A stretch of DNA of 64,000 nucleotides from a virus: IMG/VR virus record IMGVR_UViG_3300048694_001042, positions 1 through 64,000 of that record; one strand, written 5' to 3'. Below, piece by piece: positions 10,467 through 20,859 of the stretch (the stretch's first letter is position 1; each line of letters begins with the position of its first letter). Below the pieces are notes generated by a model. It was not told the origin of the DNA, did no database searches, and saw only the letters and a program-made list of their open reading frames with translations. Made by a program: the position numbers and the translations under genes.

Positions 10467-11489
10467 ATGAGTGCAATTCGTGTTGTAAACGGAACATACC
10501 GTAACAAACCCGTCCGTAATCAAGAATTTGTTCTTGTTAACGGTTTCCAGACCGGCGCCAAAGGCAACTATGTTACCGTTAAAAACAACGGTGCCTTTCC
10601 TAACTGCCCCGATACGATTCGTATCAGCGTTGACAACATCGCCGACATCGAGTATACTAACGGTATGACACAAGACAACACCGTACAGTTCGAAAAGCCC
10701 GCAACTCCTGCAGAAACCGACGAGCAAGCCATTGAGCGTATTCGTGAGCGTTTTGACATCCTGCATGAAATGACCAAGGCCAGCGTAACTGGCGACATTC
10801 GTGCTATGATTGTGTCGGGCCCTCCTGGTGTTGGCAAAAGCTTTGGCGTGGAGCAAGAAATTGAAAAAGCTACTATGTTTGACAAGTTGGCTGGCAAGCG
10901 CCTCCGTGCTGAAGTTGTCAAGGGCTCAGCTACCCCAATCGGCTTATATCAAACGCTGTACAAATATAGCGACTCAAATTGTGTCGTGGTATTCGATGAC
11001 TGCGATTCAATTCTGTTGGACGATGTCTCCCTTAACTTACTCAAAGGCGCCCTCGACTCGGGTAAAAAGCGAACCATCAGCTGGTTGTCAGAGTCGTCCG
11101 CCCTGCGCCGTGAAGGCATTCCTGATCGCTTCGAGTTCAAAGGTTCAGTTATCTTCATTACCAACTTGAAGTTTGACAAAATGAAGAGCCAAAAGCTCCG
11201 TGATCACTTGGATGCACTGCAAAGTCGTTGTCACTATCTGGACCTGACGCTTGACACCATGCGTGACAAACTGTTGCGGATCAAGCAGATTGCCAAGGAC
11301 GGCGAGCTGTTCAAGGACTACGAGTTTGAAGAGGCTGTGCAAGATGACATCATTGACTTCATGCACACCAACAAGGATCGCTTGCGTGAAGTGAGCTTGC
11401 GTATGGCTCTGAAGATCGCTGACCTGCGTAAACTGAGTGCGCTGAATTGGAAGCGACTGGCTGAGACCACTTGCATGAAGGCAGCTTAA
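10467..11489 (+). CDS. AAA+ ATPase
   Basis: A 340-residue protein. The first 80 residues form a beta-rich domain; a AAA+ module follows with Walker A GPPGVGKS at about 117-124, Walker B VVVFDDCDS near 174, and a sensor-1 ITNLKF stretch near 233. It resembles the stand-alone AAA ATPases found in many T4-like phages of aquatic bacteria, whose role is not settled. It is the largest gene under a promoter of the repeated cassette type, so early expression is likely. Confidence 0.85.
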   Translation: MSAIRVVNGTYRNKPVRNQEFVLVNGFQTGAKGNYVTVKNNGAFPNCPDTIRISVDNIADIEYTNGMTQDNTVQFEKPATPAETDEQAIERIRERFDILHEMTKASVTGDIRAMIVSGPPGVGKSFGVEQEIEKATMFDKLAGKRLRAEVVKGSATPIGLYQTLYKYSDSNCVVVFDDCDSILLDDVSLNLLKGALDSGKKRTISWLSESSALRREGIPDRFEFKGSVIFITNLKFDKMKSQKLRDHLDALQSRCHYLDLTLDTMRDKLLRIKQIAKDGELFKDYEFEEAVQDDIIDFMHTNKDRLREVSLRMALKIADLRKLSALNWKRLAETTCMKAA

Positions 11490-12562: not shown

Positions 12563-14032
12563 ATGAAAACATGCACAATCGTGATCCGCGATGAAGTCAA
12601 CATCAAGCTGGAAGGCTTGGATCTAGACGTAAGAAAAACTCTAACAAACACATTCAAATATGATGTGCCCTATGCGAGGTATCTTCCAGCAGTGAGGTTG
12701 GGACGGTGGGACGGCAAGGTCAGCTACTTTCAAATGGGCGGTAGCACCTACACTAACTTGCTACCAGACATTATTCCCATACTTGAACGCTACAACTATA
12801 ATATAGAACTAGACGACCAACGTGACTATTCTGTCAGCTTTGACTTTGATCGAGTAGAAGAAAATCGCTGGGCATACAAGACCTGGCCCAAAGGCCACCC
12901 TGCGGCAGGTGAGCCTATCATGTTGCGTGACTACCAAGTGGAAGTTATCAATAGGTTTTTAGAAAACCCGCAAAGCATTCAAGAAGTTGCAACAGGTGCA
13001 GGTAAGACAATTACTACAGCAACACTCAGTGCCGCAGTTGAGCCGTACGGTCGGTCAATTGTTATTGTGCCCAACAAGAGCCTGGTAACACAAACAGAAA
13101 AAGACTATGTTAACTTGGGCCTGGACGTTGGCGTTTATTTTGGTGACCGCAAAGAGCACGGACACCAGCATACTATCTGCACATGGCAGAGCCTCAACGT
13201 ATTGCTAAAAAACACAAAATCTGGCACTGCTGACATTACCATTGCGGACTTCATTGAGGATGTTGTATGCGTGATGGTCGACGAAGTACACATGGCCAAA
13301 GCAGATGCGTTAAAAACATTACTCACAGGAGTGATGAGCCGTATACCAATACGTTGGGGGCTGACAGGAACTATTCCCAAAGAGAAGTTCGAAAGCCAAA
13401 GCCTGCTGGTCAGCTTGGGTCCTGTAATAGGCAAACTTACAGCCAACGAACTGCAACAACAGGGTGTGTTGGCACAATGTCACGTTAACATTGTGCAACT
13501 GCAAGATCACGTGGAGTATCCAGACTACCAAAAAGAACTAAAATACTTGCTGGAAGAGTCTGGCAGGCTCGATGCTATGTCAGCCTTGATTCAACAGGTA
13601 AACGAAACAGGCAATACCTTGGTGTTGGTAGATCGAACCGAGTGCGGCCGCCAGTTGGTCGAGCGCCTGGGCGAACGTGCAGTATTTGTATCAGGTGCAA
13701 CTAAATCCAAAGATAGGCAGGAAGAATATGATCAAGTGGCTGAAGCAACGGACAAAATTATTGTGGCCACTTACGGTGTGGCTGCGGTTGGAATTAATAT
13801 TCCTAGAATCTTTAACTTGGTGCTTATTGAGCCTGGTAAGAGCTTTGTCCGTGTTATCCAATCAATTGGTCGTGGCATCCGCAAAGCTGAAGACAAGGAT
13901 CATGTTCAGATCTGGGACGTTACGAGTACGTGCAAGTTTGCGAAGCGGCACTTGACCAAACGCAAAGCTTACTATCGAGAAGCCAATTATCCATTTACCC
14001 AAGAAAAACTTGAGTGGATGAAAGTCAAATAA
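12563..14032 (+). CDS. uvsW: UvsW-like DNA helicase
   Basis: A 489-residue superfamily 2 helicase (T4 UvsW is 502) that branch-migrates recombination intermediates and unwinds R-loops, shifting replication from origin to recombination mode. Walker A ATGAGKT is at about 143-149, the DEVH box at about 240, the LTGT motif III near 270, and motif VI QSIGRGIR near 433. The N-terminal 110 residues correspond to the UvsW substrate-binding domain. The ATG coincides with the predicted transcript start. Confidence 0.93.
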   Translation: MKTCTIVIRDEVNIKLEGLDLDVRKTLTNTFKYDVPYARYLPAVRLGRWDGKVSYFQMGGSTYTNLLPDIIPILERYNYNIELDDQRDYSVSFDFDRVEENRWAYKTWPKGHPAAGEPIMLRDYQVEVINRFLENPQSIQEVATGAGKTITTATLSAAVEPYGRSIVIVPNKSLVTQTEKDYVNLGLDVGVYFGDRKEHGHQHTICTWQSLNVLLKNTKSGTADITIADFIEDVVCVMVDEVHMAKADALKTLLTGVMSRIPIRWGLTGTIPKEKFESQSLLVSLGPVIGKLTANELQQQGVLAQCHVNIVQLQDHVEYPDYQKELKYLLEESGRLDAMSALIQQVNETGNTLVLVDRTECGRQLVERLGERAVFVSGATKSKDRQEEYDQVAEATDKIIVATYGVAAVGINIPRIFNLVLIEPGKSFVRVIQSIGRGIRKAEDKDHVQIWDVTSTCKFAKRHLTKRKAYYREANYPFTQEKLEWMKVK

Positions 14033-14949: not shown

Positions 14950-15382
14950 CAAACTAAACATTGCCAACGAGATGAGAATGTTTGATCGCAAGGTCAGAAC
15001 ATTCTACGAAGAACTCACAGACGAAGAACGTAAAAAGTTCTCCACGTACTTGATGATACGTTGGGGTTCGGCTGTGGAAGGCAGCAGAGACTTACAAGAG
15101 TTTTATCTTATTTCCACTAACGAACGACTCAACAAGCATTTCTTTGCCATGAGTCGACATCCTAAATTACAGTGGCTCATGGCCACCAGCGTGAGTCCAG
15201 ACATGGGTACACCCAGACACAATTGGATATCGCCAAAGAAAAAAGAAAAAACATCAGCAATTAGAAAACAGTTGGTGGAAATATATCCGCATCTCAAGGA
15301 TGACGAAATAGATTTACTGGCTTCGATCACAGACAAAAAAGAACTAGACAACTACTTGAAAGCACATGGAGACCGTGACTAA
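14942..15382 (+). CDS. Conserved-looking phage protein of unknown function
   Basis: A 146-residue, highly charged helical protein. The second half has PRHNWISPKKKEKTSAIRK then YPHLKDDEIDLLASITDKKEL, a pattern I associate with T4-like phages of marine bacteria. The basic patch could bind nucleic acid. It overlaps both neighbours (8 and 17 nt). Confidence 0.75.
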   Translation: MSDKLNIANEMRMFDRKVRTFYEELTDEERKKFSTYLMIRWGSAVEGSRDLQEFYLISTNERLNKHFFAMSRHPKLQWLMATSVSPDMGTPRHNWISPKKKEKTSAIRKQLVEIYPHLKDDEIDLLASITDKKELDNYLKAHGDRD

Positions 15383-16052
15383 ATTCAAATGTCAATATTG
15401 CCACAAAGAGTTTGTGCGTGAAAGCACTCTGGCTGTGCATGTGTGCGAACAAAAAAAGCGCAGACAAGACAAGAGCGAGCGCGGCGTAGAACTTGGATTC
15501 CAAGGTTATGTGAGATTTTACGAAATGTCACAAGGTTCAGCCAAGTTCAAAACCTATGACGATTTTTGTGAAAGTCCTTACTATAGAGCATTTGTCAAAT
15601 GGGGTCGTTACTGTGTTAGCACTCGGGTGATAAATCCCAAACAGTTTTTAGAATGGCTGCTCAAGCACAATAAAAAGTTGGACAATTGGTCCAGTGACAT
15701 TTTGTACACAGAATATCTCACATGGTATCTCACAGTGGAAAACGTTGCTGACGCACTGGCACGAGCAGTGGAGTATGGCATGGATTGGGCAGAAAAGAAT
15801 CAAGCCCGTGACTGTGATTGTTTGCGATATGGATCTACTCATGCCCTGTGCTATGCTATCACAGCAGGGCGCATAAGTCCCTGGGTGATTTACAACTGCG
15901 AGTCGGGGCAGGGATTTTTGCAAAACATCAGTTCTGAACAATTGGCAATGATTTGGCCATATATCAATTCTGATGTGTGGCAAAAAAGGTTTGCAGACTA
16001 CTCAGCAGATCAAGAGTATGCCAAGGAAATTTTAGCAAAGGCAGGATGGTAA
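15366..16052 (+). CDS. Zinc-finger phage protein
   Basis: A 228-residue protein with a C2H2/C2HC-like finger at residues 9-27 (CQYCHKEFVRESTLAVHVC), followed by a mostly helical domain with conserved aromatic residues (ELGFQGYVRFYE). This layout occurs in many aquatic T4-like phages without known function; a role in transcription or replication is plausible from the finger and from the neighbourhood. Confidence 0.8.
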   Translation: METVTKFKCQYCHKEFVRESTLAVHVCEQKKRRQDKSERGVELGFQGYVRFYEMSQGSAKFKTYDDFCESPYYRAFVKWGRYCVSTRVINPKQFLEWLLKHNKKLDNWSSDILYTEYLTWYLTVENVADALARAVEYGMDWAEKNQARDCDCLRYGSTHALCYAITAGRISPWVIYNCESGQGFLQNISSEQLAMIWPYINSDVWQKRFADYSADQEYAKEILAKAGW

Positions 16053-16053
16053 T

Positions 16054-16422
16054 ATGATCAAAAGTATAAATGGTGGCAGCGGCATTCAAATCACCAATGG
16101 CAGTCTGTCGTGGCCCAGTTTCTATAACAGTGCCAGTTCAAGTGGCAATACTCTAATAGGGCAAGTTCGCTATAATGGTTCAAGTCAGAACTTGGAAGTG
16201 TACGATGGCAACAATTGGTTGATGATATCAGGTTCTTACCCTATGATAGAATTGTCAGGCGAAGTCCAATCCATATTGGCCTGGGCCAGAATAAAAATGG
16301 CAGAAGAAGAACGAATCAAACAGCTGGCAGCCAAACATCCCGCAGTGGCTGACGCATTGAACGCTGTGGCCCGAGCCGAAGAACAAGTTCGAATTGCAGC
16401 AGCATTGGTAGACACAGCATGA
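16054..16422 (+). CDS. Small virion-associated-like protein
   Basis: A 122-residue protein. The first 60 residues are Gly/Ser/Asn-rich beta structure with a VRYNGSSQNLEVYDGNNWL motif, common in phage tail or fibre proteins. The C-terminal 50 residues form an Ala-rich helix. I infer a minor structural or fibre-associated role. Confidence 0.6.
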   Translation: MIKSINGGSGIQITNGSLSWPSFYNSASSSGNTLIGQVRYNGSSQNLEVYDGNNWLMISGSYPMIELSGEVQSILAWARIKMAEEERIKQLAAKHPAVADALNAVARAEEQVRIAAALVDTA

Positions 16423-16997
16423 GCGCAGACATCGACATTGACATGCCCAACAGGGACGCATTGCTGAAACTGATCCAGCATGTGCCTGCACGGCTTGAAG
16501 TTAATGGTCAAGTGCGTAAACATAACTCGGGTATCTACGTTACAGAAATTCCTAGGGACATTCCCAACGGTTGTGCAGCTATTGATTACGAAGCAGCCGA
16601 ACAGCGCGGCTATTTCAAAATAGACTTGCTAAACATGAGTGTTTACAATCTGATCAAAAGTCCTGAACACTACCAACAGATGCTGGCAATTGAACCGCCA
16701 TGGAGTCGACTGTGGACAGACCCAGCTTGGGCAAGCCAATTGGTACATGTAGGAAACTATACAGATTTGTTAAAACAAATGCAGCCAGATTCAATACCCA
16801 GAATGGCTGCTTTTATATCAATTATTCGTCCGGGCAAAGCACATTTGCAACGCAGGCCTTGGACGGAAGTATTTGCAAGTGTGTGGGATGGTGATGACAG
16901 TCGGGGATTTGTGTTCAAGAAGTCACATGCGCTAAGTTACAGCATGTTGGTCAAATTGCACATGAACTTGCTCAATCAAGTCGACGCACAAGCGTGA
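16419..16997 (+). CDS. Miniature DNA polymerase III alpha (DnaE)-like protein
   Basis: A 192-residue protein that aligns by eye with separated parts of bacterial DnaE. DIDIDMPNRD at 4-13 matches the catalytic (D)FDxDF...RD motif; HNSGIY at 35-40 matches the HAAGVV-type segment; GYFKIDLLNM at 64-73 matches the third catalytic Asp strand (KFDFLGL); RPGK at 137-140 and FKKSHALSY near 166-174 match RPGPM and FNKSHSAAY. All three catalytic Asp positions (6, 8, 69) seem present, but the protein is less than one fifth of DnaE length and lacks room for PHP, full fingers and beta-binding regions. Activity is unknown. The start overlaps the upstream stop. Confidence 0.65.
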   Translation: MSADIDIDMPNRDALLKLIQHVPARLEVNGQVRKHNSGIYVTEIPRDIPNGCAAIDYEAAEQRGYFKIDLLNMSVYNLIKSPEHYQQMLAIEPPWSRLWTDPAWASQLVHVGNYTDLLKQMQPDSIPRMAAFISIIRPGKAHLQRRPWTEVFASVWDGDDSRGFVFKKSHALSYSMLVKLHMNLLNQVDAQA

Positions 16998-17349
16998 TTG
17001 ACTTTCGTTTTGATTTTTTTCTGCTGATATCCAGCAAGCTGCACACCGGACCGTGTAGTATTTCCAAATCTTTGTTTGAAAAGGTTCTCAATGTGGGTTT
17101 GAATTGATCCCACTCCCCGCGAAGAAATATGTTTATGGGAATAGAATGATTGCTTTCCCACCACCAGGTGTTGGCCAGTTCTAAAAATGCCAGTTTTTCC
17201 TGCTGTGATTGCACAGCACCAAAGTCGTAGATTGTGGTAATAGCATCATCCCTGTTTTGGATAACGCCCACGTACTCTTCGTTGGCGTAGATGCACAGCG
17301 TTATAAACGGATACTTTGCTGCTAGTTTTTGAAAGATATCATTGCCCAT
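16972..17349 (-). CDS. Conserved-looking phage protein, minus strand
   Basis: A 125-residue protein convergent with the DnaE-like gene (26-nt overlap). It begins MGNDIFQKLAAKYPF, has a Trp-rich ELANTWWWESN segment in the middle, and ends in a basic tail (SRKKSKRKSITLVRRLD). It looks like a small conserved gene of aquatic T4-like phages. Function unknown. Confidence 0.7.
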   Translation of the reverse strand: MGNDIFQKLAAKYPFITLCIYANEEYVGVIQNRDDAITTIYDFGAVQSQQEKLAFLELANTWWWESNHSIPINIFLRGEWDQFKPTLRTFSNKDLEILHGPVCSLLDISRKKSKRKSITLVRRLD

Positions 17350-18476: not shown

Positions 18477-19442
18477 ATGTTTGATATTTTCAGTTATTTG
18501 CCAGCGAAAAGAAAGCAAACGCCTTCGGGTTGGGTAAGCTTCAATGCAGTTTGTTGCAGTGACAAGCGACAACGTGCTGGACTGAAAACCACAGAACAAG
18601 GTTGGAGTTATCACTGCTTCAACTGCTCGTACACAGCCAGTTTTATTCTGGGTCGCAATCTAAGTTTCAAAGCTCGCAAATTGTTAGGGATGTTAAATGT
18701 TCCCGAAATGGAAATTGAACATTTGAATTTAGAAAGCATGCGTCACAGGTCCATGGAAGGGCTAGTAGCAGATCGTCAGCGCACACTCAATGCACTAGCA
18801 GACATTAAATTTGAAGAACGAGACTTGCCACCCTATGCAGAACTGCTGACAGAGGAAGGCAGTTATAGAGATTACGTGCGTAGCAGACGAGTGCCCGAAG
18901 ACTATCCTGTGATGATTCAAACACAAAACGACGGAGTACACTGGACCAGACCACACGTGGTAATTCCGTTTACACATGACAACACTGTGGTTGGTTGGAC
19001 ATGTAGATTTTTAGATACCAAAACTCCCAAGTACATTTCAGACAGCCAGCCCAACTATGTGTTTGGAACTGATTTACAAAAGGAATCTTGGACGCATGTG
19101 CTGGTCATGGAAGGCATCTTTGATGCACTCAGCATTGGCGGTGTGGCAACCATGCACAATACCATCAGTGATGGACAAGCAAGACTCATACGCAGCCTGG
19201 GCAAAGACATAACTGTAGTACCAGATCAAGACACCGCAGGCCTGGCACTGATTGACCGTGCAGTGGAATTGAACTGGGCAGTAAGCATACCCAACTGGCC
19301 ATCTCACATCAAAGATGTAAACGATGCAGTAATAGAATTTGGCAAGTTGGCAACTATGCTAACTATATTCGAAGCCAGAGAAACGTCGAAGATTAAAATA
19401 GAATTAAGGAAGAAGAAACTTGCTCAAAGATTACAACGCTGA
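18477..19442 (+). CDS. 61: DNA primase, gp61-like
   Basis: A 321-residue primase (T4 gp61 is 342) that makes RNA primers for lagging-strand synthesis. Cys26/Cys27 and HCFNC at 46-50 form the zinc-binding site. A TOPRIM segment with VLVMEGIFDALS lies near 205-216, followed by a VVPDQDTAG metal-binding stretch near 240. The helicase gene follows with a 23-nt overlap, matching the T4 primosome pair. Confidence 0.9.
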   Translation: MFDIFSYLPAKRKQTPSGWVSFNAVCCSDKRQRAGLKTTEQGWSYHCFNCSYTASFILGRNLSFKARKLLGMLNVPEMEIEHLNLESMRHRSMEGLVADRQRTLNALADIKFEERDLPPYAELLTEEGSYRDYVRSRRVPEDYPVMIQTQNDGVHWTRPHVVIPFTHDNTVVGWTCRFLDTKTPKYISDSQPNYVFGTDLQKESWTHVLVMEGIFDALSIGGVATMHNTISDGQARLIRSLGKDITVVPDQDTAGLALIDRAVELNWAVSIPNWPSHIKDVNDAVIEFGKLATMLTIFEARETSKIKIELRKKKLAQRLQR

Positions 19443-20859
19443 TATCCAAAAACTATTTTTGGAAATGATGTTAGAAGACGCAAGCAGTTATGTGCGTATT
19501 CAAAACATCTACAACCCCCAGAACTTTGACAAGAGTCTGCGACCTGCGGCTGAGTTTATACAAGAACACAGCGACAAGTTCAAGACCATGCCCGACCGCA
19601 CTCAAATTTCTGCAGCCACGGGTGTTAAGCTAGCACCAGTACCCGACTTGAACGAAGGTCACTTTGACTGGTTCATGACAGAGTTTGAAGCATTTACTCG
19701 ACGCCAAGAACTTGAACGTGCCATTCTCAAAGCCGCAGACTTGCTGGAAAAGGGCGAGTTTGAACCAGTCGAAAAGCTGATCAAAGATGCAGTACAAATC
19801 AGTCTGACCAAAGACATGGGCACAGATTATTTTGCTGATCCTGCGGCTCGTATCAACAAGTACTTCAATTCTGGCGGACAAGTGAGCACAGGCTGGCCGC
19901 AACTGGACAAACTGTTGTATGGCGGATTCAGTCGCGGCGAATTGAACATTTTTGCAGGTGGCTCGGGATCTGGAAAAAGCTTGGTCATGATGAACATTGC
20001 ACTCAACTGGTTGCAACAAGGACTCAGTGGTGTGTATATCACACTAGAACTTTCAGAAGAACTTACAAGCTTGCGTACAGATGCCATGCTGACCAATATG
20101 TCAACCAAAGACATTCGCAAGGACATTGATACCACAGAACTCAAAGTCAAACTGGTTGCCAAAAAGTCCGGGCAATACAGAGTCAAAGCACTGCCGGCAC
20201 AAAGCAATATCAACGACATCAGAGCCTATCTCAAAGAAGTACAAATTCAAACAGGTATTCGAGTGGATTTTATGATGGTTGACTACTTGGACTTGCTGAT
20301 GCCGGTCAGCGCCAAAGTCAGTCCCAACGACTTGTTTGTCAAAGACAAGTATGTTTCAGAAGAATTGCGTAACTTGGCCAAAGAGTTAGGCATCTTAATG
20401 GTAACTGCATCGCAGTTAAACCGTTCAGCAGTTGAAGAAATTGAATTTGATCACTCACATATTTCGGGTGGTATCTCAAAGATCAACACAGCAGACAACG
20501 TATTTGGTATTTTTACCAGCAGGGCCATGAAAGAGCGCGGCAAGTACCAAATTCAATGTATGAAAAGTCGTAGTTCAACTGGCGTGGGACAAAAAATTGA
20601 CTTGGAATACAACATTGAAACCATGCGTATTACAGACGAAGGCGGGGACGAAGGAACCGGCTATAACAAGCCGCAAAGCTCGCTAATGGACTCAATCAAA
20701 GCTCGTAGCCAAGTGAAATCCGCAGAAGAAACTTCAGAAGCTCCGCAGAAATGGGAACGTGCCACAGGCGTTCCAGCTTGGGAACAAGCTCCTAAAATTG
20801 AAGCAGATGTGCAAAGTACCAAGTTAAAACAGCTTTTGGGTAAAATAAAATCAAACTGA
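19420..20859 (+). CDS. 41: Replicative DNA helicase, gp41-like
   Basis: A 479-residue DnaB/RecA-fold helicase (T4 gp41 is 475). Walker A GGSGSGKS lies near 180-187 and Walker B FMMVDYLDLL near 285; a SRSSTGVG segment fits the arginine-finger end. The TTG start is chosen because AAGGAAG sits at the right distance upstream. It forms a hexamer on the lagging-strand template and works with the overlapping primase gene product. Confidence 0.93.
   Translation: MLKDYNADIQKLFLEMMLEDASSYVRIQNIYNPQNFDKSLRPAAEFIQEHSDKFKTMPDRTQISAATGVKLAPVPDLNEGHFDWFMTEFEAFTRRQELERAILKAADLLEKGEFEPVEKLIKDAVQISLTKDMGTDYFADPAARINKYFNSGGQVSTGWPQLDKLLYGGFSRGELNIFAGGSGSGKSLVMMNIALNWLQQGLSGVYITLELSEELTSLRTDAMLTNMSTKDIRKDIDTTELKVKLVAKKSGQYRVKALPAQSNINDIRAYLKEVQIQTGIRVDFMMVDYLDLLMPVSAKVSPNDLFVKDKYVSEELRNLAKELGILMVTASQLNRSAVEEIEFDHSHISGGISKINTADNVFGIFTSRAMKERGKYQIQCMKSRSSTGVGQKIDLEYNIETMRITDEGGDEGTGYNKPQSSLMDSIKARSQVKSAEETSEAPQKWERATGVPAWEQAPKIEADVQSTKLKQLLGKIKSN

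Follow-up and report, generated by a model that had tools for sequence, protein, structure and literature searches.

Bacterial replicases are C-family DNA polymerases, which are otherwise large enzymes. What, then, is a protein doing in a phage replication block if it carries the active-site motifs of the replicase subunit DnaE in only 192 residues? The gene in question lies in a 64,000-nucleotide stretch (the window) of the virus record IMGVR_UViG_3300048694_001042. The original prediction described a DnaE-like protein with all three catalytic aspartates and weighed a stripped polymerase core, a decoy that binds host replication parts and a re-used fold.

A small gene in a conserved replication block

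The gene is a real ORF, with an ATG at 16419 and a stop codon that ends at 16997. We refer to its product as the C-half and to its partner protein, described below, as the N-half. The start of the C-half gene overlaps the stop of the preceding ORF in an ATGA at 16419–16422, which suggests translational coupling of the two. The features of the locus are listed here.

12563–14032, plus strand: UvsW-type helicase belonging to the conserved replication block (phrog_16, E=5.9e-78)
15366–16052, plus strand: phrog_11058 protein, a conserved neighbour with a single weak match to a C2H2 zinc finger
16054–16422, plus strand: upstream ORF whose stop overlaps the C-half gene start
16419–16997, plus strand: C-half gene, 192 aa (ORF; PHROG 11778 match; predicted Pol III alpha/PolC fold)
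16428–16442, plus strand: DIDID, residues 4–8 (structural alignment to Taq DnaE and PolC; E. coli sequence; invariance)
16617–16625, plus strand: K67-I-D69, equivalent to E. coli K553/D555, with the third catalytic Asp (profile alignment to E. coli DnaE; invariant)
16827–16838, plus strand: RPGK, residues 137–140, fingers motif, RPGP in E. coli DnaE (R137, P138 and K140 invariant)
16914–16928, plus strand: FKKSH, residues 166–170, fingers motif, FNKSH in E. coli DnaE (F166, K167 and H170 invariant)
16972–17349, minus strand: small convergent ORF, phrog_11637, overlapping the 3′ end of the C-half gene by 26 bases
18477–19442, plus strand: DNA primase (phrog_47, E=1.7e-32)
19420–20859, plus strand: DnaB-like replicative helicase (phrog_19, E=3.1e-69)

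The primase, helicase and UvsW neighbours named in the original prediction are confirmed by these profile matches. A structural or baseplate-like ORF lies between the phrog_11637 ORF and the primase. The order UvsW, C-half, primase, helicase recurs in PAC2, PA5oct, CBB, RaK2, XaC1, PBECO4 and Phosso. PAC2 also has a C2H2-annotated gene directly upstream of the C-half gene, and a small convergent gene occupies the same place in PA5oct, RaK2, CBB, Atu_ph07, SCTP-2, Vibrio phage 2.275 and Slicko01. Upstream of UvsW, at 10467–11489 on the plus strand, an AAA+-like protein was observed (phrog_1250, E=6.2e-84) that also has weak helicase-loader and clamp-loader matches.

The C-half belongs to a conserved phage family

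The C-half matches PHROG 11778, annotated 'DNA polymerase', almost end to end (E=1.6e-50; residues 3–187 to profile positions 7–193 of 197). The DnaE family phrog_405 matches it weakly (E=2.6e-6), and Pol III hits in Pfam and NCBIfam were sub-threshold only. All four motifs quoted in the original prediction are present in the order given, and the protein is, as claimed, about one sixth of the length of DnaE. On sequence grounds, the resemblance to DnaE is not chance.

At least 304 relatives of the C-half were found in IMG/VR. In a phage collection it occurs in 63 records, some of them partial. Most are jumbo phages, including RaK2, PA5oct, CBB, Atu_ph07 and Phosso, and two are 141-kb Alishewanella phages. 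The hosts include Pseudomonas, Klebsiella, Salmonella, Erwinia, Escherichia, Xanthomonas, Agrobacterium, Sinorhizobium and Vibrio, among others. Labels in these records run from 'hypothetical' through 'putative membrane protein' to 'DNA polymerase III alpha'.

In an alignment of 31 sequences, whose members are 31–85% identical to the protein studied here, the invariant residues are D4, D6, D8, H35, K67, D69, R137, P138, K140, F166, K167 and H170. A pattern check of 124 ORFs found DxDxD and K-x-D in all 124 and RPxK in every full-length ORF; the F[KN]xxH pattern is absent from one ORF, RAS14. The C-half chain starts three residues ahead of DIDID, and a short leader directly precedes this motif in every C-half with its start set.

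The predicted fold is that of a Pol III palm and fingers

An AlphaFold2 model built from the 31-sequence alignment reached a pLDDT of 90.2 and a pTM of 0.80. The top 13 PDB hits of this model in Foldseek were all Pol III alpha (best E 3e-3). Re-scoring with VIA-align, which covered Foldseek's top chains only, placed C-half residues 1–192 on PolC 970–1296 (Z 9.9), Taq DnaE 460–841 (Z 9.6) and E. coli DnaE 399–781 (Z 8.2). In all, 14 Pol III or PolC entries scored from Z 9.9 to 6.2, against Z 3.6 for the first unrelated fold. The fold is therefore predicted to be the Pol III palm plus fingers and not an unrelated one. The sequence signal is fainter. A single-sequence search of PDB sequences with the C-half gave no relevant match, so profiles were needed; the best sequence-only match of the C-half profile to a solved Pol III was weak (E=0.0084), and hhalign in global mode gave a meaningless alignment.

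The three catalytic aspartates of the original prediction are present and invariant, but comparison with solved Pol III structures changes the first pair from D6/D8 to D4/D6. Two predicted strands, 5–9 and 68–72, carry the aspartates, and both align with Pol III. Since the structural alignments start at Taq 460 and PolC 970, D4 and D6 fall on the first and second aspartates of the DxDxD motif, which are the metal ligands (D401 and D403 in the E. coli motif PDFDVDF). D4 and D6 thus correspond to the metal-binding pair of strand 1. In the profile alignment, D69 pairs with E. coli D555 inside VKFDF. The spacing from D8 to D69 is 60 residues, compared with about 150 in E. coli DnaE (D405–D555), and this fits the loss of most of the thumb. 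As modelled, the C-half comprises the palm and fingers of Pol III and has lost most of the thumb. The PHP, thumb, clamp-binding and C-terminal domains of cellular DnaE are not in its 192 residues.

A weak PF07733 hit at CBB 53183 was considered as a free-standing thumb gene and rejected; it crosses three stops and overlaps an ORF in another frame.

A second small protein corresponds to the nucleotide-binding part

The nucleotide-binding half of the palm, with its GRGS motif, is not in the C-half chain, and a motif scan of the window ORFs found no GRGS. The stripped polymerase core of the original prediction is therefore one subunit: it does hold palm plus fingers, but the GRGS half of the palm is on a separate protein. 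A PF07733 search of annotated jumbo phages led to this second small protein, the N-half, which is PHROG 11127 ('DNA polymerase', about 170 aa). Its gene is separated from the C-half gene by tens to hundreds of kilobases.

The N-half ends in ...GVGRGSSVASYVL..ELD..EFL(N/K/R), which matches the point in DnaE where FERFLN precedes PERVSMPDFDVDF. Its model is of moderate confidence (pLDDT 79) and is lowest at the GRGSS loop, a loop conserved in the N-half family. Residues 70–172 of the model align to E. coli DnaE 278–393 and to Taq up to 455, and the last residue maps to E. coli N393. The N-half is thus the nucleotide-binding part of DnaE (about 278–393) with the GRGSS motif, and from this alignment the two halves abut, leaving a gap of about five residues in DnaE. 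Ahead of the palm, N-half residues 1–70 (5001–5210 in L131) had no convincing PDB match; this segment could serve in docking or partner binding.

The two genes co-occur almost strictly. The N-half profile matches 13 of 13 annotated phage records with a C-half, plus the related contigs G003 and G004. The tblastn lists for the two halves, compared by accession and with a few C-half records unlisted, share 58 accessions. Slicko01, Slickus01 and a 109.5-kb record are on the C-half list only (the N-half of Slicko01 was found by profile), and two accessions are on the N-half list only. Both halves lie on 13 of 17 long IMG/VR contigs; on the other four, the expected position of the C-half presumably falls beyond the contig end.

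Neither tblastn, motif scan nor profile found a credible N-half in the window or in the rest of the 88,493-base record of this phage (G000). A further relative, G008, also has the N-half. The order of two markers near the end of G000 (79777–80679 and 81753–82547) is shared by their matches in G003, G004 and G008, in which the N-half follows the second marker by 28–30 kb. From this collinearity, the N-half of the present phage should lie at about 111,000, some 22 kb beyond the last base of the record. In G003, sequence inspection suggests that the N-half is followed by a gp31-like co-chaperonin ORF and, 1.3 kb beyond the N-half, by an ORF for an RFC-type clamp loader.

A full DnaE was also sought with phrog_405, and none was found in G000 or 15 relatives; in the relatives the profile detected the two halves only, barring one marginal match in Phosso (profile positions 457–483, E=0.01). 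In G000 the hits cover profile positions 578–681 and 784–808 only. All 13 annotated records, G003 and G004 encode a family B polymerase, whose KxxxNSLYG and YGDTDS motifs are intact in G003; none was found in the 88,493-base fragment.

G007, a 54-kb viral contig with a C-half, has a 562-aa ORF that resembles a compact single-chain DnaE without PHP (L119 103–1788, minus strand, equal to G007:C1:44831-46516). It has RGSAGSS, DIDLDF and FKID motifs, matches phrog_405 over profile positions 358–828 (E=9.7e-55) and adjoins ORFs reading as a porin and a PstS-like protein. An epsilon-like (DnaQ-type) exonuclease is encoded in L085 (9733–10578) and related records, in several of them near UvsW. We rejected it as a general partner: 9 of 12 annotated records tested have it above the Pfam cut-off, but it was not found in G000, G003, G004 or G008.

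Discussion

We consider it probable that T4-like jumbo phages encode a minimal C-family DNA polymerase as two proteins, that the C-half is its C-terminal subunit, and that the halves associate and serve an accessory role. We infer the complex, its activity and its role as follows. D4, D6 and D69 of the C-half would hold two Mg2+ ions, and its reduced fingers would contact the template and the incoming nucleotide. The GRGSS loop of the N-half would bind the dNTP triphosphate. Association of the two proteins would then restore a single Pol beta-like palm. Nearly thumbless and without PHP, clamp-binding or OB domains, the enzyme would be poorly processive, which points to an accessory role, for instance in repair, lesion bypass or the filling of gaps, alongside the full family B replicase of the phage. 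The fuller proposal, that two small proteins from distant genes come together in trans to form a template-dependent C-family polymerase without a thumb, working beside that replicase, has in our judgement an even chance of being right.

A different activity could also arise from the same two halves. They may form a nucleotidyltransferase, for example a terminal or repair enzyme, that reuses the Pol III palm and no longer depends on a template. Many non-templated transferases occur among Pol beta-fold enzymes, and we count this in favour of such an enzyme. The halves lack most of the thumb and every other DnaE domain (phrog_405 sees two halves and the marginal Phosso match), and the phages already own a complete family B polymerase. 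Against this, the C-half keeps both fingers motifs, RPGK and FKKSH, with R137, P138, K140, F166, K167 and H170 invariant, and its gene sits within the replication block. We regard a template-independent transferase as unlikely.

Far less probable is a structural or regulatory factor, either an idle remnant or a decoy binding replication proteins of the host or the phage. The small size, the loss of most DnaE domains and the full family B polymerase of the relatives would suit it. A decoy, however, needs neither catalytic residues nor a separate partner gene, and both families preserve theirs, namely the GRGSS loop, all the catalytic aspartates and the lysine two residues ahead of D69. The clamp-binding and tau-binding regions of DnaE are also absent. 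Because the catalytic residues of both halves are invariant in our alignments and the two genes occur together, we do not retain the decoy or re-used fold of the original prediction. That the genes are decaying fragments of a once-intact phage dnaE is hardly credible: a single ancestral protein would account for both parts, and the thumb has gone, but more than 300 IMG/VR relatives keep the motifs, the C-half is found in phages of many hosts, and gene order is kept among members only about 33–40% identical to the protein studied here.

A two-protein polymerase, as favoured here, has been described before from sequence, and the protein encoded at 16419–16997 is a member of that two-gene family. 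Iyer et al. (2021, PMC7824862) reported that group 2.2 jumbo phages have a minimal Pol III alpha split in two, beside a family B polymerase. The split gives an N-terminal NTP-binding protein and a C-terminal Mg2+- and template-binding protein, encoded by distant genes, and these phage versions were proposed to be ancestral (PMC7824862). Earlier, the N-half was noted in the 2017 phage CBB paper as a truncated 172-aa Pol III alpha (PMC5259590), and an alpha subunit was reported for Atu_ph07 (PMC6102473). A search of the open-licence literature found no experimental test of the split polymerase. New beyond Iyer et al. are the exact cut site, the missing thumb, the near-strict co-occurrence and the assignment of D4/D6 with D69.

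If the proposal is true, the trans-assembled polymerase may be the smallest known and may serve as a model of an early bacterial replicase. A natural C-family enzyme cut in the middle of its active site, with about 365 residues in total, would bear on the minimum needed for C-family catalysis and on whether the split phage Pol III alpha is ancestral or derived. It would also account for a gene that many phage genomes still list as 'hypothetical' or 'membrane protein'.

Comparison with known polymerases

The palms of Pol III and Pol X (family X) both have the Pol beta fold, and enzymes of this kind can be small. The C-half had no match to a family X domain, and both its sequence and its predicted fold place it with Pol III, not with the Pol beta-like gap-filling polymerases.

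With bacterial DnaE and PolC the C-half shares the palm Asp triad, the VKFD-type motif, the RPG and FxKSH fingers motifs and the fold over residues 1–192. Unlike them, it is without the nucleotide-binding half of the palm and the PHP, clamp-binding, OB and tau-binding parts. We know of no precedent for a thumbless C-family polymerase.

The described split Pol III alpha (Iyer et al.; PHROG 11778 plus 11127) has the same size, motifs and UvsW, primase and helicase setting. The present case differs in being an uncultured phage fragment in which neither the partner gene nor a family B polymerase was found; relatives place the partner beyond the record end. As in the described system, those relatives have a distant, separate partner gene and a family B polymerase.
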